Source: a virus. Taken from it: a stretch of DNA of 31,264 nt. Every line of letters starts with the position of its first letter. Positions within the stretch are counted from its first letter, which is position 1. Positions 7,286 through 30,820 of the stretch are shown piece by piece. The translations under genes were made by a program, and so were the position numbers. The notes beneath the pieces are model-generated. The model ran no database searches. It saw only the letters and a program-made list of their open reading frames with translations, and had not been told where the DNA came from. The DNA lies in IMG/VR virus record IMGVR_UViG_3300010399_000069, positions 1 to 31,264 of that record. One strand, given 5' to 3'.

Positions 7286-7287
7286 AC

Positions 7288-7632
7288 TTGAAACAGAGTA
7301 CGCTAGAGAGGATGTGGAAGGAGCTAAACGACACTTTCTTCGGTGGCTGTCTCAACGAGATTCCTATACGCCTGACGAGATCGAAGCAGCTCTACGGGTA
7401 TTTCACGCATACTACGAACAGCGGCAAGCCCGTTATTCGCATAAGCGGGCATCTTAATAGCACGGAAGAAGAGTTCCGGGATACGCTTCTTCACGAGATG
7501 GTCCATCAAGCTATCCACCAATTCGGACTCAGGGATGATGAGGACCATGGCACGATATTCCACCAAATAGCAGAGCGTATAGGGGTCAAACGAGATTACC
7601 ATGGTTTATACGACTTTGAAACTTATAGCTGA
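7288..7632 (+). CDS. SprT-like zinc metalloprotein
   Basis: A 114-residue protein. It has the HExxH zinc site (H69-E70-M-V-H73 in LHEMVHQAI) and a third ligand candidate at H87 in EDHGTIFHQIAERI, the SprT-like arrangement. SprT/Spartan-type domains are metal-dependent proteases, best known for DNA-protein crosslink repair in eukaryotes; phage copies are small and uncharacterised. The start is a TTG at 7288; an ATG at 7312 (MWKELND) is an alternative that keeps the whole domain. It sits between the lysis-region protein and the holin candidate, so its role may be late rather than in replication. Confidence 0.8.
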   Translation: MKQSTLERMWKELNDTFFGGCLNEIPIRLTRSKQLYGYFTHTTNSGKPVIRISGHLNSTEEEFRDTLLHEMVHQAIHQFGLRDDEDHGTIFHQIAERIGVKRDYHGLYDFETYS

Positions 7633-9969: not shown

Positions 9970-10748
9970 GGGTCGTTCTCCGTTCTTAGTATATAAAGAA
10001 GTTGCGCTTGCTCTAAGAGATACTCTACAGACTTACCTCTATCTCTATACGCAGCCGCGGTACGTTCTCGTAGTTCTCCAGAATCCTTACTACCTTCCAA
10101 GATTCGTCCAGCAGCGGCAGGGCCGACACCTTCCAGGCCCGGTACGTTGTCCGTAGTGTCTCCAGTAAGGATTTGTCGATACAGCGCATAATCTCCTTTC
10201 TTCCTAGACACCCCAAAGAGTTCACTGTCAACCCAATTGTAGTGCCATCCAGGAACTTGCAAGAGGTCTTTGTCGATGCTAGCCGCCACTGCTCTATCTC
10301 CATTCTTGCTAAGAGCGATTCCAATAGCGTCGTCAGCTTCGATTCCTCGAACAGACTCAGCTCCCCATTGGGTCCTGAGATATTCTCCGACTGCGTTGAA
10401 GTGCCGGGGCTTAGCTTCGAGTCTGTTACCTTTGTATGGCTTCGTGACGGCAACGAGGTCGCGAAAGTTTCCGGGTCCACTAAGGAAGATTTTGACATCT
10501 TTGGGCTTAAACCTCTCTATTAAAGAATCCAAGGTAGTCTTGGCTGCCTGGAGAGCGAATTCCACGGGCTGGACTTCCTTCCTGGACCACACATAATTAG
10601 CTCCTGCATTCTCTTTTGCTTCCTTGGCCGTGTCGTAATACTCCAGCATCCCGTCATTGGTCACCAGATAGTAGGTCTTCTCAGCGGCGAACGCACACCG
10701 ATATCGGATTATATCGCCGTCTACTAGGAGAGTTGGATTGTCGATCAT
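9918..10748 (-). CDS. 5'-3' exonuclease of the FEN family (T7 gp6-like)
   Basis: A 276-residue protein from ATG 10748, chosen because ATGA overlaps the previous stop and GGGTGGTG lies upstream; the longer frame to 10820 runs into that gene. LLVDGDIIRYR (7-17) holds the first metal-binding Asp. RGIEADDAIGIAL and SIDKDLLQVPGW supply further acidic ligands. LTGDTTDNVPGLEGVGPAAAGRIL is the helix-3-turn-helix that binds DNA. In T7-like phages this enzyme removes RNA primers and degrades DNA ends. It overlaps the resolvase gene by 52 bases, as expected for a joint recombination and degradation module. Confidence 0.93.
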   Translation of the reverse strand: MIDNPTLLVDGDIIRYRCAFAAEKTYYLVTNDGMLEYYDTAKEAKENAGANYVWSRKEVQPVEFALQAAKTTLDSLIERFKPKDVKIFLSGPGNFRDLVAVTKPYKGNRLEAKPRHFNAVGEYLRTQWGAESVRGIEADDAIGIALSKNGDRAVAASIDKDLLQVPGWHYNWVDSELFGVSRKKGDYALYRQILTGDTTDNVPGLEGVGPAAAGRILEGSKDSGELRERTAAAYRDRGKSVEYLLEQAQLLYILRTENDPWIQNLEAALKRVWQPS

Positions 10749-11125
10749 TTCACCACCCTGCGCCCATGCGCAAGCGTCAGGTCCCCATCCTTGGATATAT
10801 CCCTCCACATAGCGCGCCAAGGGCCTCTAAAGGTCAGAGCCCAGTTCGTCATATAGGTACCACGAACCTGATGAGTGGTAGCCCTCGATGTGCAAATAGG
10901 CTTCCAGGACGGGGTGTGAGTTCTCGTAGAACCATCAAGGAATATTTCAACCAGTATGCCATTCAAGACCCAGGACAGAGCATTAAAGGCGTGGGAATGA
11001 AACGCCTCCCTACTGCCCTCGTCGAACCTCAGCATAAGCACCGAGAACAGACTCTTTATTTCTAGGCCGTAGGCCCGGGATTTAGATTCCGGGCCTCCGT
11101 CCTTATCTCCCCAAAGGAGCTTCAT
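10745..11125 (-). CDS. Cupin-like small phage protein
   Basis: A 126-residue protein. AFHSHAFNALSWVLNGILVE has the HxH plus hydrophobic-Gly pattern of a cupin metal site. A later His in RATTHQVRG and the strand-rich WALTFRGPWRA fit a small beta barrel, and the end (LTLAHGRRVV) is typical of a family of phage proteins placed near replication genes. Substrate and activity are unknown. It lies one base after the previous stop and ends in ATGA with the exonuclease gene. Confidence 0.6.
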   Translation of the reverse strand: MKLLWGDKDGGPESKSRAYGLEIKSLFSVLMLRFDEGSREAFHSHAFNALSWVLNGILVEIFLDGSTRTHTPSWKPICTSRATTHQVRGTYMTNWALTFRGPWRAMWRDISKDGDLTLAHGRRVVK

Positions 11126-11980: not shown

Positions 11981-13840
11981 TTAGACAACCGCGGAGTGAA
12001 AAAGTTCCGCGTCTACATCAAATTTTTCATCATTGGCGCTAGAATCCCCCCAGTGAGTTCCTACCTTGATCTCCGCTCCTAGCGGAACTGTGTACTTTAT
12101 ACCGTATACGGAGTCAAGATACCGCAAGGTGTCGACCGTCATGGATTCCTTTACAATATCTGAGAACAGCCTTACTTCTTCTGGATGAACCTCCGCGATA
12201 ATAGAGTCGTGTACGGTATTGACGATAAAAGTCTGAGCACCCCTAGCACGAAGCCGGTGCCAAGCGTACACGAGCCCAATAGGAATGATATCAGCAGTAG
12301 CCAGGGATGAGACCGGATAATTGTAGATAGAGGTGGTATTTTTTATGTACCCATAGTCTGAGATTGTCGTATCTGGCCAGTAAAAGATGAGTCCGGATTC
12401 TGTTCGTAGCTGCTTATCTCGCAGAACACGTAGCGTCCACTCGCGCTGCGTTCTAGCGATATCAGGCCACCTTTCAGCAAAAGCTCTTGCGTACCGTTTG
12501 GTCCGGTCACTATTACCTTTGCTTCCGTAAAGCGGTCGAAATGTCTCCGGTTTTGCATCTTGGCGTTGCTCCTTGGTTACAGCATCGAAATCAATTTCGT
12601 ACAGATTGCTAGCAGTCCCGCGATGCACATCATAATCAGCGCGGATATCAGCCAGAGCCCGAACATCCCGCCCAAGATGAGCAGCAACCCGAAACTCCAA
12701 CTGCCTTCCGTCTGCCTCACCCACCAGCCACGCATCCGACCGGGCCTTGAACAGTCGCTTGAATGCTCGGGGGAAGTTCTGGAACTGCAGCTTAAACTTC
12801 CGTCCAGATGACGATAACCTGTGATTACGCGTAACTGCTTGGTTGTATTGAGCATATAGTATTCCTCCGTCGTCTACGGCAGCTTGTAACTTCCCCAAAA
12901 TCTCAAGCTGTTTGTCGAGGACTCGAAACTGTCCGTATACTGCCTGGAACTCTCTTTGGGCGGCAGTCGTCGCACGAAGTCCCGCAATTGCGTCAGCGTC
13001 GGTGCGCCGACCGCCGCCCTCTGCACGGCTGAGTTTCCCGTGGAAATCGACAGGTTCTCTAAATCCGAGCTTATCGTAGAGCAGTCCGGCCACCTGCTTC
13101 GCACTTCGGAGATTGATGCCTCCATGGAGCTCAGTAAGTGTTCGAGTGAGCCGCCCATGCTCCTCGCGCGTTGTCTCGATGGCCTCCTTAACTCGGGATG
13201 GGTCGGGGGCAACTCCGTTAGCTTCAATGTCGGCAAGCACCGGAGTGGCGAGGCATCGAGTGTATAAGACAGGGAGTAAACCAAGCCCTTTGAGTTCTTC
13301 ACGTTGCTTGAGAAATGCATAGTATGTAGCCTCTGTGTCCCAAGAACCATAGTCAATTAACCAAGAGCGGGGGATTTCGCTTGGGCAGATTCCTCCTCCA
13401 ATAAGAGCTGATACAAGGCCTTTCTTTCGAGGGATTCCGTATCGTCCAAGAAGTCCATCAAGTGCTTTAGAGCCAGTTCGATTTCCCAACCTAACGTACT
13501 CTCCGAGCATCGTATCCCATATGACCAGACGTGAGACGTCGAACCCATAGCGAATGAGCCACTGAAGCTCAAATTTTGCGTTATGAGCAACAACGAAGTC
13601 AGCCGACTCAAGAGCCGTGGCAAGTTTCGCGAACCCTTTAAGATCTCCGGAGCAAACGTGAACTCGGTCTGGCCTGCCGCCACGTGCCAAACGCCCGTAG
13701 ATCCAAGTGCCAAGAAGGAGTCGATTATCTCTTTCGAGAGCGCTTCCGTGGTCGAGATTAGTAGTTTCAAAGTCAAAGACGACGAAGTTGTCACTTAGAT
13801 AAATCTCCGGGTTCGGGTTCTGTATATGTCTTGGCAGCAT
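11981..13840 (-). CDS. Family A DNA polymerase with 3'-5' exonuclease
   Basis: A 619-residue replicative polymerase. The proofreading domain has Exo I D23 and E25 (FDFETTN), Exo II around N87 (VVAHNAKFE) and Exo III D168 (YGSWDTEATY). The polymerase domain has motif A around D377 in EADGRQLEFRVAAHLG, motif B R426, K430, F434, Y438 and G439 in KPETFRPLYGSKG, and motif C H544 and D545 in VNTVHDSI. Motif A has DGRQLEFR instead of the DYSQIELR of E. coli Pol I, a variant I associate with phage polymerases. There is no 5'-3' exonuclease domain; that activity is encoded at 9918. The start overlaps the upstream gene by 50 bases. Confidence 0.97.
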   Translation of the reverse strand: MLPRHIQNPNPEIYLSDNFVVFDFETTNLDHGSALERDNRLLLGTWIYGRLARGGRPDRVHVCSGDLKGFAKLATALESADFVVAHNAKFELQWLIRYGFDVSRLVIWDTMLGEYVRLGNRTGSKALDGLLGRYGIPRKKGLVSALIGGGICPSEIPRSWLIDYGSWDTEATYYAFLKQREELKGLGLLPVLYTRCLATPVLADIEANGVAPDPSRVKEAIETTREEHGRLTRTLTELHGGINLRSAKQVAGLLYDKLGFREPVDFHGKLSRAEGGGRRTDADAIAGLRATTAAQREFQAVYGQFRVLDKQLEILGKLQAAVDDGGILYAQYNQAVTRNHRLSSSGRKFKLQFQNFPRAFKRLFKARSDAWLVGEADGRQLEFRVAAHLGRDVRALADIRADYDVHRGTASNLYEIDFDAVTKEQRQDAKPETFRPLYGSKGNSDRTKRYARAFAERWPDIARTQREWTLRVLRDKQLRTESGLIFYWPDTTISDYGYIKNTTSIYNYPVSSLATADIIPIGLVYAWHRLRARGAQTFIVNTVHDSIIAEVHPEEVRLFSDIVKESMTVDTLRYLDSVYGIKYTVPLGAEIKVGTHWGDSSANDEKFDVDAELFHSAVV

Positions 13841-14320: not shown

Positions 14321-14509
14321 TTACTCGTACTCGAACAAAGTTATTACGTGATCCTTCGGGTCACCTCCAGGCCACCCGTATCTGGTATACTCCAAGCCTC
14401 CATCAACAAAAATCGCTCCACACTTACAATGTTTAAAATCGTGCCCATAGAGGGACTCTATCACGTCTTCACACTTCTTACACTGAATGCGGTTTCTCTT
14501 TAGTTTCAT
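14321..14509 (-). CDS. Small zinc-ribbon protein (CxxC/CxC)
   Basis: A 62-residue protein coupled to the helicase by ATGA. CKKC (residues 10-13) and HCKCG (27-31) form a compact zinc-binding pair. The following GGLEYTRYGWPGGDPKDHVITL is a conserved-looking module of a widespread family of small phage proteins without known function. A nucleic-acid or protein adaptor role is possible. Confidence 0.7.
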   Translation of the reverse strand: MKLKRNRIQCKKCEDVIESLYGHDFKHCKCGAIFVDGGLEYTRYGWPGGDPKDHVITLFEYE

Positions 14510-15711
14510 TCGACCACCTTCGAGAGTAAAGGATCAATAAGAATCGGAATAGGCTCGTGCTTACCGGAGAGCTTATTCTTGGGGAAGCTCAGTACCCGCT
14601 GATTCATACGTTCCATTTCCTCCGTAGCTCCTATGCCAATCATGAGGTCTATTTGTCCCGGAATTCCAACATTACTTCCGTCAACGTCGCCGCGATTAAG
14701 GATAGTTTTTCCTGAAGCAGAATCCGCCGCCTGGGTGACTGAAATGACCACCAAATCTCGTCGTTTACCGAGATTCCTGCCCTCTGTAGCGGCTTTTTCA
14801 AGTGCCTGAGTGCGGTTCTCAGAATCCACGTCCAGATTACGTAACTGGTCCAATATGACCACACGGGGGCTAAATCTTTCCACGAGTCCGTTGATCTGGC
14901 GGAAGTTCCCGGGGGCCAAAGGCGCCATGATAAGTTTTTCATAGTTTCGTTTATCCAGAATTGCTTGAGCCCTGTCCGGATTATCTTGTACCTCTTGACG
15001 GTTTAACCCTGTTAACCTGTTTATCACCCGCATCAGTAGATCCGGAGCCGGGTCCTCGTTCCCTACATATAGCGTTGTCAATCCTTGCTTGAGGAACCCT
15101 GCCACCGCATTCACTACAAACAAGGTCTTGCCCATCTCTGTCGGGGCAAACACAAGCACATGATGGCCCGGACGACACCCCCCTCCGACGTGGTCGTTCA
15201 GAGCCTTCGGCCATAGCTGTATAAGTCCTTCTTTACTAAAGGATTTCTGGACTAGATCTCCGACTTTGGGCGCAACAAGAACTTCCGGCTCATCTGCGCC
15301 TGAAGCGGACTCTCCTGTTCCAGCCTTCTGGTACTCTTCGATAAGGCCGCTAACTTCGCTGCCCGTCTTTCCTGCTGCAAGAAGTGACGCAAGTCGTTTA
15401 CCAATCGAATCTTTGCGGAGTGATGACATCTCCCGAGCGACGTTGATCGCGGAGACATCTTCAGGAAGTCTGCGAAGCGCCGCGACCACAGCTTGTGCCA
15501 GTTTATTAGACTGAACCGTCCTCTCAACTCGGGAGGCAAGGATATCCACGTCGCATCTATTAGCTTCTCGATCTGCATCATAGTATTCACCTATTAGGTC
15601 TAGGACTAAAGCCCCGGTAGGGCTAAATTGATCTTTCTTTACCAGATCCCTCGCCTGCTCCCAGGCTCGTCGATCCCTTACGAACGCCGCTATGATCTTC
15701 TGCTCGTTCAC
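14506..15711 (-). CDS. Replicative DNA helicase (DnaB/T7 gp4 helicase-like)
   Basis: A 401-residue protein with a GTG start and a strong upstream GGAGGT at 11-base spacing. The RecA-fold ATPase has Walker A at 189-196 (APTEMGKT, with Ala in the first Gly position), the catalytic Glu at E219 (GNED), Walker B at 284-288 (VVILD) and the H4-type sensor in VISVTQ (Q327). The N-terminal 150 residues are helical and DnaB-like. Primase activity is encoded separately at 16021-16899, unlike the fused T7 gp4. A palindrome copy lies in the gene at 15000-15017. Confidence 0.93.
   Translation of the reverse strand: MNEQKIIAAFVRDRRAWEQARDLVKKDQFSPTGALVLDLIGEYYDADREANRCDVDILASRVERTVQSNKLAQAVVAALRRLPEDVSAINVAREMSSLRKDSIGKRLASLLAAGKTGSEVSGLIEEYQKAGTGESASGADEPEVLVAPKVGDLVQKSFSKEGLIQLWPKALNDHVGGGCRPGHHVLVFAPTEMGKTLFVVNAVAGFLKQGLTTLYVGNEDPAPDLLMRVINRLTGLNRQEVQDNPDRAQAILDKRNYEKLIMAPLAPGNFRQINGLVERFSPRVVILDQLRNLDVDSENRTQALEKAATEGRNLGKRRDLVVISVTQAADSASGKTILNRGDVDGSNVGIPGQIDLMIGIGATEEMERMNQRVLSFPKNKLSGKHEPIPILIDPLLSKVVE
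15000..15017. repeat. Dispersed palindrome, copy 3 (GTTTAAC-CCT-GTTAACC)
   Basis: Imperfect inverted half-sites with a three-base spacer, inside the helicase gene. Weaker than the intergenic copies. Confidence 0.4.
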
Positions 15712-15758: not shown

Positions 15759-16040
15759 TCAAATCAAATCATCCAAGCTTCGCGGAAGGTAGACTCCGTT
15801 CTTGTGTTTCGGCTCCAAGCCTCGTTCCCGCATAAGTACCAATCGGCTAAGCAGTTTACGAACCTCGCCGTATTCCGGTCTGTCTCGAAATTCTCGGTCG
15901 AGTTTAACTGTTAACCTAAAGATGTCCAGGCGAGTACGAGGAGAAAGCTTCAATCCAAGCATATTTAGCAGCATGATAGCCGCCTCATGTGTCTCCCGAT
16001 AATTGGTTAAAGTCGGTGCACTATACCTTAACAACGTCAT
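15759..16040 (-). CDS. Hypothetical protein between primase and helicase
   Basis: A 93-residue protein that starts 20 bases inside the end of the primase gene. It is basic and helical (LDIFRLTVKLDREFRDRPEYGEVRKLLSRLVLMRERG). Its place between primase and helicase suggests a helicase-loader or adaptor role by analogy with other systems, but no motif shows that. A palindrome copy lies within it at 15904-15918. Confidence 0.6.
   Translation of the reverse strand: MTLLRYSAPTLTNYRETHEAAIMLLNMLGLKLSPRTRLDIFRLTVKLDREFRDRPEYGEVRKLLSRLVLMRERGLEPKHKNGVYLPRSLDDLI
15904..15918. repeat. Dispersed palindrome, copy 4 (GTTTAAC-T-GTTAACC)
   Basis: Half-sites with a one-base spacer, inside the gene at 15759-16040. 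On the coding strand they encode part of LTVKL, a peptide similar to the ones encoded at copies 1 and 5. Confidence 0.4.
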
Positions 16041-16899
16041 TTACCATCGCTTGTATTTCTTCTATATCGTGGTACTTCAAGTCTTTAGACAGCAGAAGTG
16101 GTATTAAGTTCCCTCCGGATAGGAAGCTGTATTTGGATACAAGTTCAATAGCTTTTGTCGTTGCATCTCGGTCAAGAGCCAAGACAACGACTTGTCCTTG
16201 GGCCGCGGCTTGGGCTTCAGCCAATTTATCCAGGCTAAGATCACACCCCATAAGGCTCGCCGTCTTATAGCCGGCCATTGCGACTTTCGCTGCAGAAAGT
16301 ACGTCTTCCACCAGGACAACCGCGGGTGCTGCCAGTCCTCCACCCACCCCCCTGTACCAGCCCATCCAAGTCTCATTGCCCAGTCGATAGTCTCTTGACT
16401 TGGGATACGCCCCAGGTTTACCTCGCGTATGAACACCGCGTGCCTTGCCATCGGGGTCGCAGATGCGAACCACGAGCCGGCCGCTATCAACTTCTTGAGT
16501 CCACCCGAAGTGAGAGACAGCTTCCGTGGTAAATCCGTACGTACACTGCAGTGCGGACAACCAGAATTCATCCAATCCTCTAGTCTCACAAGAGAAAGAT
16601 CTTCGGGTGTTTCGTTCCATCTGAAGATATACGTCGGCAAGATCACCAACGGTTCCTCCGATATAGCCGTGAGAACCACAAGTGGCTCGGTGACAGCAGT
16701 AGGCCAGTCTAGTGGCGTCCACCCTTGTAAGCGAAAAAGATTTCTCGGAAGAGCTTCCGCCTCGACAGGCGGGGCAGATTCCACCATTGGTGGAAGCCCC
16801 AACTGGCAATTCTGCTCCTCGCATCCGCAGTTCGGATAGCACATAGGGGTCAAGCCTCTTCCGCTGCATCGGTGTCGATCGTCTCTTTCTCCGGCTCAC
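16021..16899 (-). CDS. DNA primase with zinc-binding and TOPRIM domains
   Basis: A 292-residue protein. The N-terminal zinc-binding element uses C42 and C45 (CPAC) and C69/H70/C74 (YCCHRATCG). The TOPRIM catalytic domain has E198 in VVLVEDVLSAAKVA and D243/D245 in VLALDRDAT. This is the T7 gp4A-like primase layout without the helicase half. It makes RNA primers for lagging-strand synthesis and probably works with the helicase at 14506. The start is a GTG at 16899 with GAGG just upstream; ATG 16869 is an alternative that keeps both domains. It overlaps the upstream gene by 50 bases. Confidence 0.92.
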   Translation of the reverse strand: MSRRKRRSTPMQRKRLDPYVLSELRMRGAELPVGASTNGGICPACRGGSSSEKSFSLTRVDATRLAYCCHRATCGSHGYIGGTVGDLADVYLQMERNTRRSFSCETRGLDEFWLSALQCTYGFTTEAVSHFGWTQEVDSGRLVVRICDPDGKARGVHTRGKPGAYPKSRDYRLGNETWMGWYRGVGGGLAAPAVVLVEDVLSAAKVAMAGYKTASLMGCDLSLDKLAEAQAAAQGQVVVLALDRDATTKAIELVSKYSFLSGGNLIPLLLSKDLKYHDIEEIQAMVNDVVKV

Positions 16900-17206: not shown

Positions 17207-17482
17207 CTAAGTATTAGTGAGACCTGCATAGAAGCTTTCAGGAAGCTCCGCTTCAAATTCTATCAGTCCCTCATAATCGTCGTCTGGTTCGGGCTCCTCT
17301 TCCTCCGGCAGTTCTGCCTCTATGGATTCGTAGATTTTACCTCCCTCGTGCTCCCCTTGGAAGTCTTCTGAGAAGTCCAATTCCAAGTCCTGGATGTCGG
17401 CGTTATCCATCATCTCGATGATCTCGTCCATGGCGGGTTCGTCTAAAGATTCGTCAGAATCGAAACTCTCGTCTCGTTCCAT
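17207..17482 (-). CDS. Extremely acidic small protein
   Basis: A 91-residue protein whose ATG overlaps the previous stop (TAATG), which favours this start over ATG 17494. Thirty-six of 91 residues are Asp or Glu, against one Arg, one Lys and one His. No domain is recognised. Such composition occurs in DNA-mimic anti-restriction proteins such as T7 Ocr and in regulators of host nucleoid proteins. Its position as the second gene of an apparently early leftward operon fits such a role, but this is inference only. Confidence 0.7.
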   Translation of the reverse strand: MERDESFDSDESLDEPAMDEIIEMMDNADIQDLELDFSEDFQGEHEGGKIYESIEAELPEEEEPEPDDDYEGLIEFEAELPESFYAGLTNT

Positions 17483-17871
17483 TATGGATACCATCCCTCT
17501 TGCCTAAGACGATCAGCCTTCCACCCAACCGTCTTCGCTATCTTCTTGATATTACTCATATTCCATACCCAAGTCTTGATTCGGTTACCTGAGTTACGGT
17601 TAACGATACCCCTAGTCTCCGTGATTGCGCCTAAGTCGTTGTTCCGTATGTATTTGGCTAATTTGACACCAGGGCTGACGTATCTACGCCATTTACCACT
17701 GCCGGTGGGAGCCGGGTAGTGCGTGTAATCCGAGAAACACACCTGGGAGTAAGACTCTCCGTCGTTGTAAAAATCATCCAAGACGTGAAGGATCAATTCC
17801 TTTGGATCGCTATAATTTAGATCACTAAGCTGTCTTACTCCACAAGATATGTCTGAATAAGTTATACTCAT
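17482..17871 (-). CDS. Conserved-type phage protein, first gene of the leftward replication operon
   Basis: A 129-residue protein with AGAG upstream of its ATG, downstream of the AT-rich leader at 17872-18016. The central GVKLAKYIRNNDLGAITETRGIVNRNSGNRIKTWVWNM looks like a small phage family of unknown function seen near replication genes. It is mixed alpha/beta with many aromatic residues. No catalytic motif was found. Confidence 0.7.
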   Translation of the reverse strand: MSITYSDISCGVRQLSDLNYSDPKELILHVLDDFYNDGESYSQVCFSDYTHYPAPTGSGKWRRYVSPGVKLAKYIRNNDLGAITETRGIVNRNSGNRIKTWVWNMSNIKKIAKTVGWKADRLRQEGWYP

Positions 17872-18016: not shown

Positions 18017-18703
18017 TTAACCGTATAGGTCCTCTATTTGGAAATCATTTAATTGCCCTGTGTCTGTAGACTTCCACCTGTAAAGGGGCCATTCTTTGTG
18101 AAATTTTCTGTAATGTTTTTTCCACTCCTCGAACGGCAACCCGGTCGCCATCTTGCCAGACACGTATTCCGTTCCTTCGATATGCCGCACATTCTGGTTA
18201 CTGTGGTTCGGCACCCAAATCCACGCACGCAGCAACGAAAAATTCGATGTCTGGTGGTTCTGATTTGTCACCAACGGAGACGCCACAAGGAACTCCCCTT
18301 TCTTTCTTAGCCAAGTAGCGAACCCGGCTACGGACAAGGCGCCGTGGTTATTATTAGTCTTTGCCGGTAGTTCCGTCTCGGTGTTGCACGGGCAAGACAT
18401 CAAGACAAGGCTGTATACACGAAACCCATTTTTGAACTCATCGAAAAGCTTGTCTCTGGCGTCTTCATTCTCCGCGATGTATTTCTTGAGAGCTGCGCTG
18501 GGCTCGCCGATAAGAGTCGTCGTACCTAAGTAATTGTCTGCGAGCACATATTTTTTTTCTACATTGCCTAGTGATACAACCGCAGGCGCACTTAGAGTAA
18601 GTGCGGCCAGACAATTCGAATGACATCCAAGAAATTGGTTAGTCGTAGCAGTCAACGAGACTTGGACTTTTGATCCCGGATAACCGGGTACCTCAATTTC
18701 CAC
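18017..18703 (-). CDS. Unrecognised protein, last gene of the amidoligase operon
   Basis: A 228-residue protein with a GTG start and a strong GGAGG about seven bases upstream, overlapping the ATP-grasp gene by 11 bases. It has several Cys (LGCHSNCLA, LMSCPCNTE), strand-rich segments and a basic aromatic C-terminus (FEEWKKHYRKFHKEWPLYRW). I do not recognise the family. Tight coupling to the ligase genes suggests it acts in the same pathway, perhaps as acceptor protein or accessory enzyme; this is inference from position. Confidence 0.75.
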   Translation of the reverse strand: MEIEVPGYPGSKVQVSLTATTNQFLGCHSNCLAALTLSAPAVVSLGNVEKKYVLADNYLGTTTLIGEPSAALKKYIAENEDARDKLFDEFKNGFRVYSLVLMSCPCNTETELPAKTNNNHGALSVAGFATWLRKKGEFLVASPLVTNQNHQTSNFSLLRAWIWVPNHSNQNVRHIEGTEYVSGKMATGLPFEEWKKHYRKFHKEWPLYRWKSTDTGQLNDFQIEDLYG

Positions 18704-19604
18704 GTATCACCCTCCTGTTCTTGATGGAGTGATAATGCTTGTCTACGGCGTCCGCGTAGGCTGCTATGGTCGCCGAGTTCTCCAAACCAGGCCCCGTATT
18801 AACCTCACAGACCCTAAAATGGAGCGCCCGGCGGCGGCCGTTTGCAAGTCGTGTCGGTCTGCCGAAGACTGCAAGGATGTCAGCCGCTCCGAAATCGAGA
18901 TTAAGAGCTTGGATTGCAGCGACTGCTCCTCTCTTAATTTCTTCAATTCCTCCAGTATCAAGTTCTCCGTCGATTGTGTGGGCGTGGACCCACCCGTTGG
19001 CGTGGCTCCGTACCAGCCTTTCTGTTCGTTCACTATTAACGAGTTCTGGCCTGAGCCGTTTTTGGGTAAAGTCGATGACTTCTCCTTTGAAGACGTGGAC
19101 TCTAAATTCGTGAGTCTTTGGATAATACCGTGTATACAGCGGCGCAGGGCTATGTGGCACGGCTCCTCCCAAGGTTGCAACGAGTCGAAGACCCGATCCA
19201 GCAGAACCATCAAGTCTTGTGCGGGCGATGTATCTCCCGTCTTCGTTGAGCCAGCCATTTAGAGTCTCCTGATAGTTTGGGGTCTGTGGTAGGACAAAAT
19301 CGAGGCACGGAACTTGGGCGGCTCGAAGGGCTTCCAGTGTCGCGATTTTATTGATAGCCCGGGATACAGCCTCCGTAGAATTGAGTAAGTGATACTTGCG
19401 TCCGTTGGGCCACGGCCACAGCTCCGGTTTAATCCAGTTAGGAGCATCTGAGGCTCCCCAATTGATGATGACCGGGACAACGGGGGCGGTCTTCCGGCCG
19501 GGAGTAGAGTCTTCATACCACCTCCGGCAGCCAAGTACCTTGGCGATTGCCCGTGCACTGTGTGATGCTCGGTCACAGTAAATGATTAGGTCTCTATTCT
19601 CCAT
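18693..19604 (-). CDS. ATP-grasp carboxylate-amine ligase
   Basis: A 303-residue protein with GGAGG eight bases before the ATG. ATP-grasp features are the glycine-rich ARTRLDGSAGSGLRLV (127-142), the strand EFRVHVFKGEVIDF with K182 shortly after, and the metal-binding CEVNTGPGLEN (266-276). It resembles the YheC/D-like ATP-grasp ligases of phage amidoligase clusters. The family activates a carboxylate as acyl phosphate and joins it to an amine. Here it lies beside two other COOH-NH2 ligases, so a multi-step peptide or amide product is likely. The substrate is unknown. Confidence 0.88.
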   Translation of the reverse strand: MENRDLIIYCDRASHSARAIAKVLGCRRWYEDSTPGRKTAPVVPVIINWGASDAPNWIKPELWPWPNGRKYHLLNSTEAVSRAINKIATLEALRAAQVPCLDFVLPQTPNYQETLNGWLNEDGRYIARTRLDGSAGSGLRLVATLGGAVPHSPAPLYTRYYPKTHEFRVHVFKGEVIDFTQKRLRPELVNSERTERLVRSHANGWVHAHTIDGELDTGGIEEIKRGAVAAIQALNLDFGAADILAVFGRPTRLANGRRRALHFRVCEVNTGPGLENSATIAAYADAVDKHYHSIKNRRVIRGN

Positions 19605-20207
19605 TTACGCTTCCTCCCATCCCGGTCCTACAACGGGACCCGTCGGCCGAGGGCGCGGTTCCGAACCCGGCAGCGCCAATGGCTGGCTCGGCAAGGCCGG
19701 AAGAGAACTCAGGGCAGGTTTCAGCGATATACCGATGTATCCATTCAAGGCTTCTTCCATGTTCGGGTCCCAAGCATGAGAGGACGTGTTCTGCCCGGCC
19801 CACCGTCCGTGAGCAATGAACTTCGTACCTTTCTTCAGATACCTATCCGCTGGAAGTGCGTATATCCACGCCTTCCCGTGGATGTCCAGGTCGATGATAT
19901 CCCGATGATAGAACTCTGGGTACCCCTCCAGATGATCCACCATCTCGAAGGCTTTGTCGTCGATATCCCACACTTCTCCATAGACGTGCCATCCCCCGCT
20001 TTTGACTTTGACGGCTCCAGGAAACCCGCCCAAGTGCACCATCACGTATCCCGGCGCTCGGGTGTACCCATTGAGAATCCTGTTGCTGCCAAGGATTGCG
20101 TGATTTGGCCCCTCGTGCTTGAGGGTGCCATACACAAAGACTTGGTGACGGCCTCCGGCGCTAGCTTCCTGCGCCTTTCTTGCATCGAATATTGACGGTC
20201 TTGGCAT
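19605..20207 (-). CDS. Gamma-glutamylcyclotransferase-like (GGCT/AIG2) protein
   Basis: A 200-residue protein coupled to the amidotransferase by TAATG. The signature VFVYGTLKHEG (23-33) binds the gamma-glutamyl part. E94 in MVDHLEGYPEFYHRD is in the position of the catalytic Glu, and WIYALP follows. Residues after about 150 form a Pro/Gly-rich tail not needed for the fold (PALPSQPLALPGSEPRPRP). GGCT enzymes release 5-oxoproline from gamma-glutamyl amines. In a ligase cassette this suggests that gamma-glutamyl conjugates are made and trimmed. Confidence 0.88.
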   Translation of the reverse strand: MPRPSIFDARKAQEASAGGRHQVFVYGTLKHEGPNHAILGSNRILNGYTRAPGYVMVHLGGFPGAVKVKSGGWHVYGEVWDIDDKAFEMVDHLEGYPEFYHRDIIDLDIHGKAWIYALPADRYLKKGTKFIAHGRWAGQNTSSHAWDPNMEEALNGYIGISLKPALSSLPALPSQPLALPGSEPRPRPTGPVVGPGWEEA

Positions 20208-21715
20208 TAGTGCAAAATCTCCACATCTTTCGTTTGTTGATTAGACAGTCCCAATGTAACTCGTACTTCCTTGCTTCCGCTGCAAGTCTCGCATATAGGG
20301 CTCTGCTCGCTCGGTCCTACCCATAGTATCGTTTCTTGATCCTCGGTAGATAGGTCTCGTGAGCAGTATCCACACCCATATTTAACCAGCTCGTTAAACT
20401 CCTTTTCAGTAATTCGCCTACCGCCAGGACCCAGGAAAGAAAAGGGTTTGTCTGCGCGCACGACCTCCGACGTGGCGCGAGGCTTGAATATGAATCTGTC
20501 CATCAAGTCTGGTGCGTAGTCCGCCACCAAGATGAAGTCTCCTGGGTTGGTGCGAGATTTCTTGACGTTTACAATCCTCCCGTAGATGTTCCGATGATCC
20601 GAGGCGGCGTCCCAAATGTCCTGGGTCACGTTACCGATCTGGAAGAACTGCCTCTTGACTCGGTCGTGCCCTTGTATCATTCCGCGGACAGGCCGCTGAT
20701 TTTTGTACGGAATCCAGTATTCCGGAAAGAAACAAATCGGTTGATCTATTTTTCTCCCAAGGCTCAAAAGGCGTTCCTTGACTGTGCGAAGCTTCTTCCG
20801 ACTGATGGGTCTTACTGACCCTTTGATTCTTGCTACGCTACCACTCCCTTCCTCCTCGTCTTCCGAAGGCTTGCCAAGCTGCGTATTCGTCGTCGAAGTC
20901 GTCTCCGTAGGGCGAACCGGCAGCCGCCTTTGCTCTTCTGTCCAAGGAGCGCCTAACGGATTCTGCTGGATAGCCCCCGGCGCATGGAAGGGGCGGTTTG
21001 CGAAAGGGAGACGTGTGTACTCCCGTAGGTTATCCAGTTTGAACTTGAAGTGCTGGAACGCGGTGCAATGCCGGAACTTGCCGTCCATCTTGATCTCGTG
21101 GCGCACCAAGACGGCATAGATGGATTCCAGTTCCGACCCCCAATACATCGTGTTCTCGCCTTCGGCGTAGCACCAGAACAGCGGCTTGTCTTGGTTCCTG
21201 GCGAAGTTCAAGGACCCGTCCCTGGCGTCGTGCCAGACCAAGGCGAAAGGGCCAATAAGCTTCTCCAATACTTCCCTGGTATCGTACAATTCCAACGCTG
21301 CGGCTACGTGAGCCGAGTCTACCGGGTGGTCGATGCACGAATCCAGGAGCTTGGCATTACGGATTGTTCCGTTATGCGTCAGTGTGATAGCTCCTGACTG
21401 GAACGGATGTGCGTTCGCATCAGCCATGTTCCATCCATCTGATGTAGAGGAACGAGCATGCCCGATCACGAATCCATAGTCATCGAAATGCGTCTCCATC
21501 TTGCGATAGTGATGCAAATCAATGAAATCCGCCGCTTTCATAGCCTTTTTGTAGACCAAAGCCGGCTTCTCGATGTCCGCTATCTTGACAACTGCCACGC
21601 CTGTGGCGTCCTTACCTCGGAACGATGCTACTTCCAGCAATTGCCGGAAAGCTGACTTTCGTTCCATTTCTTTCTTGCGTCGCTCCGTAGAAGCGACTCC
21701 AGCCAGTCCACACAT
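20207..21715 (-). CDS. Class II glutamine amidotransferase with C-terminal zinc ribbon
   Basis: A 502-residue protein from ATG 21715. This start makes Cys2 the N-terminal nucleophile of an Ntn hydrolase (MCGLAGVAS) and has AAGGG eight bases upstream; the longer GTG frame would bury it. SFRGKDATGVAV (31-42), GHARSSTSDGWN (85-96) and NAHPFQSGAITLTHNGTI (101-118) are the usual GATase II motifs, as in GlmS and PurF. It should release ammonia from glutamine. The C-terminal 200 residues are not a known synthetase domain and end in a zinc ribbon (C448, C451, C475, C478). Ammonia may feed the amidoligases encoded on either side. Confidence 0.92.
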   Translation of the reverse strand: MCGLAGVASTERRKKEMERKSAFRQLLEVASFRGKDATGVAVVKIADIEKPALVYKKAMKAADFIDLHHYRKMETHFDDYGFVIGHARSSTSDGWNMADANAHPFQSGAITLTHNGTIRNAKLLDSCIDHPVDSAHVAAALELYDTREVLEKLIGPFALVWHDARDGSLNFARNQDKPLFWCYAEGENTMYWGSELESIYAVLVRHEIKMDGKFRHCTAFQHFKFKLDNLREYTRLPFANRPFHAPGAIQQNPLGAPWTEEQRRLPVRPTETTSTTNTQLGKPSEDEEEGSGSVARIKGSVRPISRKKLRTVKERLLSLGRKIDQPICFFPEYWIPYKNQRPVRGMIQGHDRVKRQFFQIGNVTQDIWDAASDHRNIYGRIVNVKKSRTNPGDFILVADYAPDLMDRFIFKPRATSEVVRADKPFSFLGPGGRRITEKEFNELVKYGCGYCSRDLSTEDQETILWVGPSEQSPICETCSGSKEVRVTLGLSNQQTKDVEILH

Positions 21716-21756
21716 TATGCGAACCCTTTCATACACATTTTAGCGTAATAACACAT
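21715..21756 (-). CDS. Possible 13-residue mini-ORF between amidoligase and amidotransferase
   Basis: Directly after the amidoligase stop (TAAATG) an ATG opens 13 codons, MCYYAKMCMKGFA, whose TAA overlaps the amidotransferase ATG (TAATG). A GGAG lies about ten bases upstream of the start. It fills the gap exactly and uses the same junction types as the rest of the operon. It could be a coupling leader peptide, a substrate of the ligases, or chance. Confidence 0.35.
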   Translation of the reverse strand: MCYYAKMCMKGFA

Positions 21757-22944
21757 TTATCGAGGTCTCCTAACGAGAGGGGGGACCTGTGCTTGCTGCA
21801 TTAACGCGTTCATCTCTCGACGTATTCGCTCCCTCTCCTCATCGACGAACGGGTCTTGTTGCCATGCCGGTTGAATGCCCACACCTAAACCTTCCCCAAG
21901 TATCGGCGCGAGCTCGTCCATGAACATCTGTGCTTCCAGCCCTGCCGGCTGCGGCTCCTGCGCAACTTGAGGCGGAGGCGCCACTGCAGGAGCCACGTCT
22001 CTCTCTAAGAATCGGCGGAAGCCGTCGTTCATTCCTCGGGGTCGCGCCATAAAAGCATCCCAAAGGTTAACTGTTAAACCCTCCCGTATAAGTTCGTTGG
22101 CCGTCGGGATTCCTCTTTCGATGATATCCGCCTCCATGTCTCGGTAGTTCAGGAACGAGAACTCCGGCCCAAGGATGTTCTGGATGGATCTCAACCCACC
22201 CTCGTGCTCTACTGTGCGTACAATGGCAGTATCCGATTGTGGCAAGCGGGCAGTAGCCCGCTTAATCGCCATCAACAGATTGATCCATCGCAAGATGCGC
22301 GTCACGTCCGTAGTAGTCTTCATATGACGTGCTTCGATGCTACCGAACTTCATTAGGGCATTGAGATTCAGAGCTGCGTACCTCTGGTATCTCTCGGAAC
22401 TACCAAGCAACTCTTGGTTTGCCCCTTCCGACGGTTTGTTCGCGCTCCGTAGAATAGCCCCGGCCTCCATGATGGAGCCTTCCGCCTTGTACCAAGGCAC
22501 GCAGAAGTGGGAATTCTCTCTGTTGTCTCCGATCCAATTGTAGATTACAGGTTCGTACAGAGCGTACAGAACGCAAAATCCGACCAATTGAGGCACTTCC
22601 AAGTCTCGCACATCGAGATGTACGTGCAGCCCCGTGCGTAGCGTGGAACGCCATCCATTTTCATCGGCGTATCGACACAATCCTTCGATAGCCAGGATTG
22701 CGTCACGGCCGAATAATGGCTCGACAAAGGCAAATTCGGAACCTCCGTCTCGGATGCTACCCTCCTCATGCCATTGCCAGTAATGGGACCACGCCGTGAC
22801 CGGCAATTGCCTATTCCTTGCCACGATCCCGGTATGCTCAAACTCAAATTCCACCCCGATCCGAGCATCCGGAAGGATGAATCGGTTATCGGGAGTGAAA
22901 AATCGAGTAGCCTCCGGCTTATCCAAAAGCTTGGCTAGTTTCAC
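21757..22944 (-). CDS. Amidoligase (Amidoligase_2 family, glutamine synthetase-like fold)
   Basis: A 395-residue protein from GTG 22944, chosen because GGAGGT precedes it and GTGA overlaps the previous stop; the frame upstream is a shadow. GVEFEFE (30-36), RDGGSEF (65-71), GLHVHLD (105-111) and the later ALMKFGSIEARHM are the metal and ATP-binding motifs of the glutamine synthetase-like amidoligase fold. A Pro/Gln-rich linker at about residues 300-330 precedes a polar C-terminus (DEERERIRREMNALMQQAQ). The family is predicted to form amide bonds between amino acids or onto proteins. A palindrome copy lies in the gene at 22064-22080. Confidence 0.88.
   Translation of the reverse strand: MKLAKLLDKPEATRFFTPDNRFILPDARIGVEFEFEHTGIVARNRQLPVTAWSHYWQWHEEGSIRDGGSEFAFVEPLFGRDAILAIEGLCRYADENGWRSTLRTGLHVHLDVRDLEVPQLVGFCVLYALYEPVIYNWIGDNRENSHFCVPWYKAEGSIMEAGAILRSANKPSEGANQELLGSSERYQRYAALNLNALMKFGSIEARHMKTTTDVTRILRWINLLMAIKRATARLPQSDTAIVRTVEHEGGLRSIQNILGPEFSFLNYRDMEADIIERGIPTANELIREGLTVNLWDAFMARPRGMNDGFRRFLERDVAPAVAPPPQVAQEPQPAGLEAQMFMDELAPILGEGLGVGIQPAWQQDPFVDEERERIRREMNALMQQAQVPPLVRRPR
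22064..22080. repeat. Dispersed palindrome, copy 5 (GGTTAAC-T-GTTAAAC)
   Basis: Half-sites with a one-base spacer, inside the Amidoligase_2 gene. It encodes part of GLTVNL, similar to the peptide encoded at copy 1. Confidence 0.4.
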
Positions 22945-23594
22945 AGAAGAACTACCTCCAAGTTCAGCTTTTTCTTCATGTTCATCGCGGCATCTGCGTA
23001 CAGACGCGCGACGTGTGCCACGCCGTCTCGCATATGCCCGATTGTGTTTCGCCTGTAAGCGATCATCGGATATTTGTCCGTAGCAGTGGTATATAGCCCC
23101 ATTTTGTTGCTCAAGGCGCACCCCACGCGTTCCCCGGACTCAAGAGATTTCAATGCCTCCTCGACCGTATAATAGGTCGGTAGAAATAGATTTTTGATGA
23201 CCGTGATGTTGCTTGGATCAGGACTTTTTCCATTTTTCCTAAGATCCCAGGCATTGAACACGGCGTACTGCACTCCATTTGGCCTGAATCCTTTCTGCGC
23301 AACTCTCGGCGCCGTTTGCCACATATAGAGAATGGAGTGATCTCCGTTCACCATCCCCAGTTCAGGCATACCGAAACTACACCGATTCATCAAGTCCCGC
23401 CATCGAACGTGGTCCGTCATCCCTGACTGTCGTGTAAGAAACACAATCTGGTTTTCTGGGTCCGTCTGTTGAACCATCCTGGGCTCTGGCTCGAGTTCGC
23501 CATACCACGCCAGCCACGCGTATCTGTAATATCTGTGGAAATCTCCTATGCTCTCGCAGTCACACGGGCGCATTGCGGGGACTAACTTAATCAT
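22941..23594 (-). CDS. Unrecognised protein between the two amidoligases
   Basis: A 217-residue protein from ATG 23594, set by the ATGA overlap with the type 2 ligase and by the GTGA overlap with the next gene. The N-terminus has MRPCDCESIG and an aromatic stretch (FHRYYRYAWLAWYGELEPEPRM). Later parts include MPELGMVNGDHSILYMWQ, YYTVEEALKSLESGERVGCAL and a basic C-terminus (MNMKKKLNLEVVLL). I do not recognise it. Overlaps with an amidoligase gene on each side argue that it belongs to the pathway. Confidence 0.75.
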   Translation of the reverse strand: MIKLVPAMRPCDCESIGDFHRYYRYAWLAWYGELEPEPRMVQQTDPENQIVFLTRQSGMTDHVRWRDLMNRCSFGMPELGMVNGDHSILYMWQTAPRVAQKGFRPNGVQYAVFNAWDLRKNGKSPDPSNITVIKNLFLPTYYTVEEALKSLESGERVGCALSNKMGLYTTATDKYPMIAYRRNTIGHMRDGVAHVARLYADAAMNMKKKLNLEVVLL

Positions 23595-24505
23595 CGTGGC
23601 GCCTTCTTGGTAATGTTCGCATCGAGACTCATGCTCCACAGATCGTGAGAATACCGAGCAGGAAGCTTGGCCACGTTTGAGGCGTAGCGAAATATCTCCA
23701 GACCCAAATCCACGTTTTCCGTTGTGATCGCATCACGTACATCGTCCCACGGGATCATTTTGTACGCGTTCGCAAGCACTTCGGGGCGATTCTGCGCCGT
23801 AATGCCGAGATCAAAGAAAGCTCCGCTCAGATAGTGGATGTAATTGCTCTTTCCTCCGGCTCCTTTCAGCCAATAGTTGCTCAAGGAGCGGTATTCCACT
23901 CCGTAAGGCTTGTCGCGGTACAACCCTGGTAGCCCGTAGTACATCCTTCGAGCCCCTTGCTTGTCGTGCACCAGCGAGGGCAGCCCCACAAGCACATCAA
24001 GGAATTTCACAATGACGTGAGGGGGTACTTTCTTGTTATACCCAAGATGGATGTGACCGCCGGCAAACCGGCGAGTGCCAAATTCTCCTATATTCAACGG
24101 CTTACGCACGACCGGACCATCTTCCCCGTATGCGCTCATGTCCGGGCTGCACCCGATTGTGCAAGCCCTTTGATCGTACAAATCCTTTTCCTTGAAATTG
24201 TACTCAGCCCTGATCTGAGGATCGAGCCCGCTTTTGTGTAACCGATCTCTGATCCACCCCCACGCGACTTCGATGTTGGATGAAAACCGTTGCCCGCTTG
24301 TGGTTGCGGGAATGTTGAACTCGTAAGCACACCCGTCCTCTTGATATGCGTAGCCCCCCTCCTCTTCATCCCGCTTCATCAAACCTTCCATTTCTTTCGG
24401 CTCTTCCTTTGTTCCTCCGATCAATCCGCACACCGGAATGATCGCCCGAGACGCCAAATGCTTGACGAACACTTCCGGGTCAGCTCCGACTTTGACGACG
24501 CTCAT
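23591..24505 (-). CDS. phiEco32-like COOH-NH2 ligase type 2
   Basis: A 304-residue protein. VGADPEVFV (6-14), GLIGGTKEEP (27-36), QEDGCAYEFNIP (55-66), FAGGHIHLGY (147-156) and YGVEYRSLSNYWL (201-213) are the motifs of the amidoligase family first noted in coliphage phiEco32. This is a glutamine synthetase-like fold that binds ATP and divalent metals through the Glu and His residues listed. It is the first of the ligase genes in transcription order. A palindrome copy (24508-24523) lies immediately upstream of its ATG, so expression of the cassette may be controlled here. Confidence 0.93.
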   Translation of the reverse strand: MSVVKVGADPEVFVKHLASRAIIPVCGLIGGTKEEPKEMEGLMKRDEEEGGYAYQEDGCAYEFNIPATTSGQRFSSNIEVAWGWIRDRLHKSGLDPQIRAEYNFKEKDLYDQRACTIGCSPDMSAYGEDGPVVRKPLNIGEFGTRRFAGGHIHLGYNKKVPPHVIVKFLDVLVGLPSLVHDKQGARRMYYGLPGLYRDKPYGVEYRSLSNYWLKGAGGKSNYIHYLSGAFFDLGITAQNRPEVLANAYKMIPWDDVRDAITTENVDLGLEIFRYASNVAKLPARYSHDLWSMSLDANITKKAPR

Positions 24506-25185: not shown

Positions 25186-25192
25186 GTTAACC
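25177..25192. repeat. Dispersed palindrome, copy 7, centred on a start codon
   Basis: GTTTAAC-AT-GTTAACC (plus strand). On the minus strand it contains the stop of the glycosylase-like gene and the ATG of the next gene. Fifteen of 16 bases match the palindromes at 6598 and 26620. Confidence 0.65.
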
Positions 25193-25681
25193 CACCGTGA
25201 ATTTATTTAGGAAGTGCGAAAAATTAAAATCCACCACTGGCTTGTATTTTAGATTCCCTAAATCGTCTCTCTCGTGCATATCCGGATAGAACGGCTTAAT
25301 CGTCTCCGGCACTTTCCACGCATACCTTTTGTAGAAATCAGGACGGCGCGAAACAAGCGTAGCGCGGTGAAATGTGTGCACACGCTCGTCTCCCACCCAC
25401 GGCGGTAGCTTCGTCGAGTACCGCAAATCGAGTCCGGTATATATTTTTCTTTCTTGCTTGAATCCACGTTGTCCCCACAAAATCACGCAAAGATTGTAAT
25501 AGGCTTTGAGCGCATCTATGTGCCCATACCATTGCATCGCAGCCGGTTCTTTGTACCAGCCTGCCGGAGCATCCACCAATAGGTGCACCAGTTCGCCGGC
25601 TTCGTAAATCTGTACCCCCAAATCCGCGTTGGACAAAAGCCCAATGGAATTAAGCGATGGAAACGGCAAAAGAGTGTTCAT
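25187..25681 (-). CDS. Pyrimidine dimer DNA glycosylase (T4 endonuclease V)-like family protein
   Basis: A 164-residue protein. The start MNTLLPFPSL, the following LGVQIYEAGELVHLL, the WYGHIDALKAYYNLCVILWGQRGFKQ segment and the late PPWVGDERVHTFHRATLVSRRPDFYKRYAW match a family related to T4 endonuclease V that usually begins MNTFLP. In T4 DenV the N-terminal Thr and a Glu near residue 23 are catalytic; here Thr3 and E27/E30 are the nearby candidates, so activity is not certain. The gene is the first after a terminator-like hairpin (25686-25709), and no clear Shine-Dalgarno precedes its ATG. Confidence 0.65.
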   Translation of the reverse strand: MNTLLPFPSLNSIGLLSNADLGVQIYEAGELVHLLVDAPAGWYKEPAAMQWYGHIDALKAYYNLCVILWGQRGFKQERKIYTGLDLRYSTKLPPWVGDERVHTFHRATLVSRRPDFYKRYAWKVPETIKPFYPDMHERDDLGNLKYKPVVDFNFSHFLNKFTVG

Positions 25682-29494: not shown

Positions 29495-29657
29495 ATCCCC
29501 GCTTCTTCCGGTTCAACCCGTAGCCGAGGGCCAGCCTCTTGCTCAGGCGACACCTCCCCTCTCGCCTCTTGGGGCTCCTCGGCGGCGGTCCAATCATACC
29601 AGGCACCCCGGAACTGGTAAGTTTATCAAGGGCTCGCGAGGCCGCTTCGGTTCCTAA
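29481..29657 (+). CDS. Small Pro-rich, basic protein
   Basis: A 58-residue ORF found by its junctions: the ATG at 29481 is 14 bases inside the zinc-ribbon gene and the TAA overlaps the next ATG (TAATG). The N-terminal half is rich in Pro, Leu and Gln (SPLLPVQPVAEGQPLAQATP). The C-terminal half is basic (PRRRSNHTRHPGTGKFIKGS). No family is recognised; a scaffold-like or nucleic-acid-binding role is possible. Confidence 0.65.
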   Translation: MNASKSPLLPVQPVAEGQPLAQATPPLSPLGAPRRRSNHTRHPGTGKFIKGSRGRFGS

Positions 29658-30820
29658 TGAAGATTGCCGGTATCCAGATAGGCGGGGCAATGGACTTCAA
29701 TAGTCCTACGTACCAAGCCGCCCTAGCCAAGCAATCTGTGATGGTCCTCGGATTCTACCCCGGGTTCGCCCCCGGCAAGGTATACATGGAAGACTGTGTC
29801 AAGGCCATCAAAGCTCTTAATCCGGCAGCCAAGGTCTTTATCTACGTCAATTCCGATGGACAGAAAGACCCCCCTTCCAAGCCCTTTGCAGCCTATGTAG
29901 CCGCTATCCGGGCTAATGGGTGGTTCTTGACAAATGCCACTTTATCCGAGGTACCGTCCTTCTTCCCCGGGGAGGTGACGATCAATAATACACAGAATAC
30001 GCCCCCGGACATCCTTGGTAATACGTCCATAGATTGGATTACCCGGTTTTGGGACTGGAATGTAGACGTACCTTCCGCGGATGGTCTCTACATGGACAAC
30101 GTATTTGCTCAGCCTCGCGTGGACGGAGATTGGTGCTGCACAGGCAATGTATTAAAGGCGTCCGATCCAGCGGCGGCGGCGTCATTACAAGCCGGGTACG
30201 CCCGGTATTTCTCTCTTATACGAGAGTTACAGCCCGGAAAGCTCCAGATAGGCAATATAGGGAGCTGGACGGCTAATGGCGCCTCGGTTCCACCGGCCTA
30301 CGTAGGGATGACAGATGGCGGGGTCCTAGAAGCTCTCCTGGGTAAGTCGTGGTCAGTAGAGACTTGGGGTGGCTGGACCAAGATGATGGCCCAATATACG
30401 GCCACCATGCAAGCTGTAAATGATCCAAAACTGGTAATCTTTAACCAACACGGATCTTCCACGGATTACCAATCAATGAGATACGGCCTAGGTTCGTGTC
30501 TATTGAATGATGGATACTACAGCTTCACAGATGACTCGGTAGGGTACTACGGAGTGGTCTGGTTCGATGAGTATAACGTCGATCTTGGAGAGCCTATTTG
30601 GGCTCCTCCTACAAAGGCTTGGGCCAACGGCGTCTGGAGACGGGATTACACAAACGGAATTGTTCTGGTAAACCCGAAGACTAATGGCCCGCAGACTTTA
30701 GCACTAGAGACGCCTTATACTCACTTCTCCGGGTCTCAGGCTCCAGATATTAATACCGGATTGCCGGTTAACACAGTTTCACTAAAAGATCGAGATGGCT
30801 TGATCTTACTAAGAAGGTAA
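29657..30820 (+). CDS. Putative glycoside hydrolase (GHL15-like TIM barrel)
   Basis: A 387-residue protein without a signal peptide. The alternating barrel strands (IAGIQIGGAMDF, VMVLGFYPGF, KVFIYVNSD), a DGLYMDNVF motif near 142-150 with D147 as a candidate catalytic acid, and a C-terminal cap (NGIVLVNPKTNGPQTLALE ... DGLILLRR) fit the hypothetical glycosyl hydrolase family 15 group. It could be a virion-associated depolymerase that degrades host capsule or lipopolysaccharide, or a tail component. It is coupled to the small basic gene and followed six bases later by another small gene. Confidence 0.7.
   Translation: MKIAGIQIGGAMDFNSPTYQAALAKQSVMVLGFYPGFAPGKVYMEDCVKAIKALNPAAKVFIYVNSDGQKDPPSKPFAAYVAAIRANGWFLTNATLSEVPSFFPGEVTINNTQNTPPDILGNTSIDWITRFWDWNVDVPSADGLYMDNVFAQPRVDGDWCCTGNVLKASDPAAAASLQAGYARYFSLIRELQPGKLQIGNIGSWTANGASVPPAYVGMTDGGVLEALLGKSWSVETWGGWTKMMAQYTATMQAVNDPKLVIFNQHGSSTDYQSMRYGLGSCLLNDGYYSFTDDSVGYYGVVWFDEYNVDLGEPIWAPPTKAWANGVWRRDYTNGIVLVNPKTNGPQTLALETPYTHFSGSQAPDINTGLPVNTVSLKDRDGLILLRR

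Follow-up and report, generated by a model that had tools for sequence, protein, structure and literature searches.

The virus record IMGVR_UViG_3300010399_000069 (31,264 bases), taken whole as the window, carries a cassette of amide-forming and amide-cleaving enzymes of the type predicted in phiEco32 and other phages. We confirmed seven minus-strand open reading frames (ORFs) within positions 18017-24505. In the direction of transcription, from 24505 to 18017, they encode a COOH-NH2 ligase type 2, a protein called X here, an Amidoligase_2 enzyme, a class II glutamine amidotransferase (GATase), a GGCT-family protein, an ATP-grasp ligase and a protein called Y. A short gene, Z, follows Y and is probably part of the set.

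23591..24505 (-): COOH-NH2 ligase type 2, a glutamine-synthetase/GCS-like (GS/GCS-like) amide ligase (PF14395, 3.6e-8; phrog_3815, 3e-45)
22941..23594 (-): protein X, core cassette part with a putative N-terminal Tudor/SH3-like domain (phrog_11055, 2e-7)
21757..22944 (-): Amidoligase_2, second GS/GCS-like amide ligase, GTG start (PF12224, 3.6e-9)
20207..21715 (-): class II glutamine amidotransferase, Ntn-type, Cys2 (GATase_6, 7e-16; phrog_4736, 5e-56)
19605..20207 (-): gamma-glutamyl cyclotransferase / gamma-glutamylamine cyclotransferase family, GGACT (PF06094, 5e-22)
18693..19604 (-): RimK-like ATP-grasp ligase (phrog_2599, 6.8e-45; PDB relatives)
18017..18703 (-): protein Y, fast-evolving, GCH...NxxH motif, tentatively GNAT-like (conserved motifs, structural neighbours)
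17482..17871 (-): protein Z, short relative of Y, probably of the same set (profile-profile match to the Y family)

Most true start sites are fixed because neighbouring stops and starts overlap: X begins at 23594, inside the 3' end of the COOH-NH2 ligase gene, and Amidoligase_2 begins at a GTG at 22944, inside the 3' end of X. The GATase begins at an ATG at 21715, giving a Met-Cys-Gly N-terminus. A sequence-only reading of this DNA had described a single overlapping run; the seven ORFs are where it placed them, with the correction that a 41-base gap separates Amidoligase_2 from the GATase. Replication genes lie on the same strand, namely a primase-like gene (16021-16899), a helicase (14506-15711) and pol A (11981-13840).

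The enzyme families that had been named from the sequence were all recovered, four of the seven proteins exceeding curated Pfam cut-offs (COOH-NH2_lig, Amidoligase_2, GATase and GGCT) and the ATP-grasp ligase being recognized through phrog_2599 and its PDB relatives. Alignments of up to 88 relatives show that the window retains every catalytic residue of its three ligases, as well as those of the GATase and the GGCT protein, and that nearly all relatives keep them too; the loss of residues that would have refuted the sequence-only reading is not seen. The COOH-NH2 ligase scores 33.4 bits against a gathering cut-off of 25, and its residues D9, E11, Q55, D57, E62, H151, H153, R186, R197, E204 and R206 are conserved in 87-88 of 88 relatives. 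It is ~26-35% identical to isolate phage proteins and 66% identical to its homologue on the environmental contig L009 (L numbers denote sampled loci); against the PDB its profile gave only faint hits on the proteasome subunit SEM1, which are probably due to chance. Amidoligase_2 scores 37.3 bits against a cut-off of 22, with E34, E70, H107, H109, Y189, E204 and R206 invariant among relatives.

The GATase has the full set of class II glutamine-site residues (C2, R88, N115-G116 and D133); Cys2 is found in 81 of 82 relatives, and R88, N115, G116 and D133 are invariant. The N-terminal Cys and the C-terminal zinc-ribbon-like CxxC pairs (GCGYC / CETC) noted in the sequence-only reading are both present, on either side of a long unassigned middle. 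Pfam finds only GATase_6/7 (residues 87-207) and PDB matches fall within the glutaminase part, and no SIS/sugar-isomerase or phosphoribosyltransferase domain was found after it. This does not fit a GlmS or PurF identity and makes the phage annotation 'L-glutamine-D-fructose-6-phosphate aminotransferase' misleading. The GGCT protein scores 79.2 bits against a cut-off of 22.8, its YG-x-L motif and the Glu94 at the catalytic position are invariant in 60-61 relatives, and its PDB kin are YtfP, YkqA and human AIG2-like domain protein 1. The ATP-grasp ligase has no Pfam match. In the PDB, the profile built for its family finds kin in RimK-type alpha-L-glutamate ligases, cyanophycin synthetase and D-Ala-D-Ala ligase. 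K86, G138, E166, R168, D242 and E267 are invariant and N269 is present in 75 of 77 relatives, which covers the metal/ATP residues (D, E, N, R and K).

The cassette is common in phages rather than rare. A near-identity DNA search with the window gave no match in phages. Scans of IMG/VR with single proteins (Y, X and the ligase) recovered no relatives, but a profile scan gave 80 loci, with at least 544 confirmed stretches encoding a ligase relative. In a phage collection, 313 records match the GATase and 307 the COOH-NH2 ligase. Per-component profiles were applied to 88 cassette loci, with near-identical contigs included in the counts; the GATase sequences varied too much for their alignment to be used as a scan profile. 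In the 45 loci flanked by over 6 kb at each end, ATP-grasp, GATase and Amidoligase_2 were each found in 44, GGCT in 33 and X in 29. Two architectures emerge. In the first, as in the window, X stands between the two GS/GCS-like ligases; in the second X is missing, the GATase directly follows the COOH-NH2 ligase or ATP-grasp and GGCT lie between them, and the GATase and Amidoligase_2 are often longer. X-less loci (e.g., L035, L041, L069 and L073, among L029-L088) carry GGCT together with Peptidase_C26, and in some of them the GATase is present twice. The same type of pattern search across 84,980 bacterial and archaeal species genomes returned just 8 loci, all on contigs of metagenome-assembled genomes, which suggests that the ligase family is confined to phages. 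An 11 kb contig, L096, sits in an Aenigmatarchaeota bin and carries an X-less set with COOH-NH2 ligase, C26 and GGCT; an archaeal origin, of which binning is no proof, would exclude peptidoglycan as the target in that case.

We identify X as a core cassette component, newly recognized here: it is present between the ligases in 62 of the 88 loci. Its AlphaFold2 model is confident (pLDDT 94.9; built from an alignment of 45 sequences, all from IMG/VR loci and the window), and twelve viral predicted structures in BFVD match it at E < 0.001, including proteins of the cassette phages CW02 and RIO-1; R4JGU0 of RIO-1 matches X less closely. Residues 7-77 resemble Tudor-like domains (Z ~5-6 across 51-70 residues, with no clear lead over other SH3-like barrels) and are followed by a conserved Arg and an RQ-[WY]-[KR]-[KR]-G-like stretch. 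The structure list also contains a faint papain/C39-like resemblance. Profile and structure comparisons yielded no enzyme match, and the profile found no relative among PDB sequences. X may be a non-enzymatic binding or scaffold protein that holds a substrate. In Pseudomonas phage Lyrsu01 (L005), the deposited annotation at 7022-7618 (+) opposes the X homologue at 6986-7474 (-).

A second regularity concerns the GGCT gene. In 44 of the 88 loci, a Peptidase_C26 / class I amidotransferase-like gene (Pfam 1e-14 to 7e-18) lies upstream of the ligase. Of the X-carrying loci whose neighbourhoods are complete, 19 encode GGCT alone and 11 C26 alone, with no locus combining the two, while X-less loci with complete neighbourhoods have both enzymes in 17 of 18 cases and neither in one. 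Extending this to all classified loci (n = 82) gives 37 with X and GGCT, 21 with X and C26, 23 X-less with both and 1 with neither. Four later loci agree: L089, L090 and L093 combine X with C26 and lack GGCT, and L096 has both and lacks X. The Zobellviridae differ among themselves in the same way, with C26 in CVT22 and PA11 and GGCT in T2S2. GGCT/GGACT enzymes cleave gamma-glutamyl bonds and release 5-oxoproline, and the C26 family includes gamma-glutamyl hydrolases and PuuD. The natural reading of the alternation in X-bearing cassettes is one gamma-glutamyl-removing step that either enzyme can supply, suggesting that this removal is a shared, fixed step of the cassette.

Y has no Pfam match, and its best PHROGs hit is at E 0.06 only. 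Among the surveyed loci its relatives occur only in L009, L011, L012, L013 and L021, and G26-C27-H28, N147, H150 and W163 are invariant in the six aligned sequences. All 50 structural neighbours listed for its weak AlphaFold2 model (pLDDT 55.5) are GNAT-type acyl/acetyltransferases at Z 5.5-7.0; such values can reflect a fold arrangement that is common, and inspection of the sequence shows no acetyl-CoA loop of the usual form (Q/R-x-x-G-x-G/A), so Y is only tentatively a divergent GNAT-like protein. Z, with its ISCG and NxNSGNxIKxWVW motifs, is related to Y by comparison of the two family profiles (P 1.6e-6, probability 90%, 65 columns). Two Z-type genes stand in tandem in L009. Fast-evolving proteins of 200-400 amino acids also adjoin the cassette in L014-L028, L037, L048, L051, L068 and the isolates L006-L008; they share C-G type motifs (DFCGG, CFGA), and often NxNSGN, with no detectable overall similarity. 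In many other cassettes, proteins with these motifs sit upstream of the ligase. A single superfamily uniting them with Y was considered and rejected: the motifs are alike and the profile comparisons are not significant, so we claim only the kinship of Y and Z. The motif C[FHY][GASN] shows no clear enrichment in operon proteins (40/217) over other ORFs (61/399). Of the two partners that the sequence-only reading could not name, both remain without a Pfam name; X has become a conserved core component with a putative Tudor/SH3-like domain and Y a tentative GNAT-like protein with a relative beside it.

We tentatively favour, at a little under even confidence, the reading that the cassette is an intact, phage-specific pathway for gamma-glutamyl or amino-acyl amide chemistry, placed beside replication genes. 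COOH-NH2_lig and Amidoligase_2 would spend ATP to couple a glutamate-type carboxylate with an amine, and the RimK-like ATP-grasp enzyme would add a further amino acid or amine. The GATase would hydrolyse glutamine, the ammonia amidating a carboxylate. GGCT, or Peptidase_C26 in other phages, would then take off the gamma-glutamyl unit, as in protect-extend-deprotect routes. X may serve as a non-enzymatic scaffold or as a holder of substrate or partners, and Y and Z might be GNAT-like transferases handing the product to an acceptor, for which an envelope peptide or glycan, following a published proposal, is the leading guess. The analysis establishes the genes, their intact catalytic residues, their conserved co-occurrence and, within this sample, the alternation of GGCT with C26. 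We infer the sequence of reactions, a gamma-glutamyl intermediate, what X, Y and Z do, and which acceptor is used. That the set makes and trims a gamma-glutamyl conjugate, as the sequence-only reading had suggested, gains support from the GGCT/C26 alternation; the target remains a candidate only.

Several points weigh against the favoured pathway. The alternation reflects just 2-3 independent switches in the ligase tree, leaving 2 usable pairs for an independent-pairs test, and with so few switches it cannot reach significance. Members of the GGCT family and class I/C26 enzymes act on varied substrates, for which reason we only infer that the gamma-glutamyl substrate is shared. The low-confidence model of Y and its missing acetyl-CoA loop count against the transferase step, and no substrate, product or expression of the cassette is known. 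A more specific version, to which we give a low probability, would make this a viral gamma-glutamyl protecting-group pathway, in which the unrelated GGCT and C26 enzymes are interchangeable deprotecters and an undescribed kind of product is placed on its acceptor by rapidly diverging GNAT-like proteins, Y/Z here and the DFCGG/CFG proteins next to other cassettes.

The strongest alternative, in our view possible and on balance unlikely, is modification of peptidoglycan or the envelope that blocks superinfection or adsorption: the ligases would link stem peptides in an unusual way, and GGCT and the GATase would trim or amidate them. It could equally be the destination of the favoured pathway. 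A RimK/Ddl/cyanophycin-like ATP-grasp enzyme suits peptide ligation, and the proposal is a published one, credited to Iyer et al. 2009 in passages of PMC10580990 and PMC11318856 and repeated in PMC5498523 and PMC11945000. Against it, the genes adjoin primase and helicase rather than lysis or surface genes, which is neutral at best, and our literature search, which covered Iyer et al. 2009 only as cited elsewhere, found no experiment on the product or activity of the cassette. That search returned predictions only, in line with the earlier statement that no product is known.

The ATP-grasp enzyme is closest to S6 glutamate ligases and Y-type neighbours evolve rapidly, which would also fit a system that attaches glutamate or a peptide to some protein of the host or phage, in the way RimK acts on ribosomal protein S6. 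GGCT/C26 would then be the eraser, and Y/Z the target or the transferase; modification of host proteins has been suggested for ATP-grasp peptide ligases of phages (PMC4431377). We consider such tagging improbable, as nothing points to any target protein. GS/GCS-like ligase folds, moreover, usually act on small molecules. Just as improbable to us is a small-molecule route feeding replication or packaging, for example gamma-glutamylation of polyamines or amino acids as by PuuA/PuuD. The Puu pathway pairs a GS-like ligase with a C26 hydrolase, which speaks for such a route, as does the replication-side location; however, three ligases and a glutaminase exceed its needs, and no Puu oxidase or dehydrogenase was found among the scanned window ORFs. 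DNA hypermodification with amino-acid conjugates is the least likely target option and very improbable: the replication-side location would suit it and amide-forming enzymes could build base side chains, but no thymidylate-hydroxymethylase-type or base-kinase gene was found among the scanned ORFs, a weak point because the record is a fragment.

The cassette occurs in hundreds of phages, including laboratory ones of E. coli and Pseudomonas, and since 2009 the literature covered has offered only predictions of its product. The comparison narrows the question: X belongs to the core, and taking off a gamma-glutamyl unit looks like a constant step that either of two unrelated enzymes performs. The cassette itself was already known; X as a core component, the GGCT/C26 alternation and a tentatively GNAT-like Y with its relative Z are new.

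Elsewhere in the record, a pyrimidine dimer DNA glycosylase of T4 endonuclease V type (Pyr_excise, Pfam 5e-10) lies slightly upstream of the cassette at 25187-25681 (-), and a small protein at 10745-11125 (-) matches phrog_4786 'cysteine dioxygenase' (3e-12). An aspartyl/asparaginyl beta-hydroxylase family protein (PF05118, 9e-7) is encoded close to the start of the record at 325-897 (+), and a hypothetical glycosyl hydrolase of family 15 (GHL15, 5e-17), possibly a tail-associated enzyme, close to its end at 29657-30820 (+).

The phiEco32-type assignment made from the sequence holds up: five enzyme families form one same-strand run in a replication-gene neighbourhood like that of isolates, and a synteny comparison across phage genomes showed the set recurring beside primase/helicase. 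It stands shortly before these genes in Bruynoghevirus (LUZ24, PaP3, tf, UFV-P2 and Ab22), phiEco32-like E. coli phages and Zobellviridae (CVT22, PA11 and T2S2), as well as in Pseudomonas phage Lyrsu01 and Poriferisphaera phage ZRK32. Because the same set occurs in these isolates, where it is known only by prediction, the window cassette is, by gene content and homology, a divergent member of the phage amidoligase cassette known from phiEco32, LUZ24/PaP3, PA11 and RIO-1. In the Pseudoalteromonas phages RIO-1 and PSA-HP1, a seven-gene cassette with amidoligases, ATP-grasp, GATase and GGCT has been described, its function assigned by prediction (PMC5498523), and the name 'peptidoglycan modification cassette' is in use (PMC5498523; PMC11945000).

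Like the window, the Bruynoghevirus phages encode COOH-NH2_lig, an X homologue, Amidoligase_2, GATase, ATP-grasp, GGCT and primase/helicase on one strand, the aligned cassette proteins of Ab22 being 22-31% identical to those of the window; unlike it, they place ATP-grasp before GGCT and have two ~320-amino-acid CFG-motif proteins upstream and no Y downstream. The phiEco32-like E. coli BASEL phage Bas91 shares COOH-NH2_lig, X, Amidoligase_2, GATase, ATP-grasp, GGCT and primase/helicase, but its GATase (676 amino acids) and ATP-grasp enzyme (400 amino acids) are larger, several small genes are inserted and GGCT follows ATP-grasp. In the Zobellviridae (Citrobacter phage CVT22, Pseudomonas phage PA11 and phage T2S2) the same set, including X, begins with the GATase, and CVT22 and PA11 have Peptidase_C26 and no GGCT. 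The environmental contig L009 (IMGVR_UViG_3300037466_000713) has the same order as the window, with GGCT before ATP-grasp and then relatives of Y and Z, and differs in carrying two Z-type genes.

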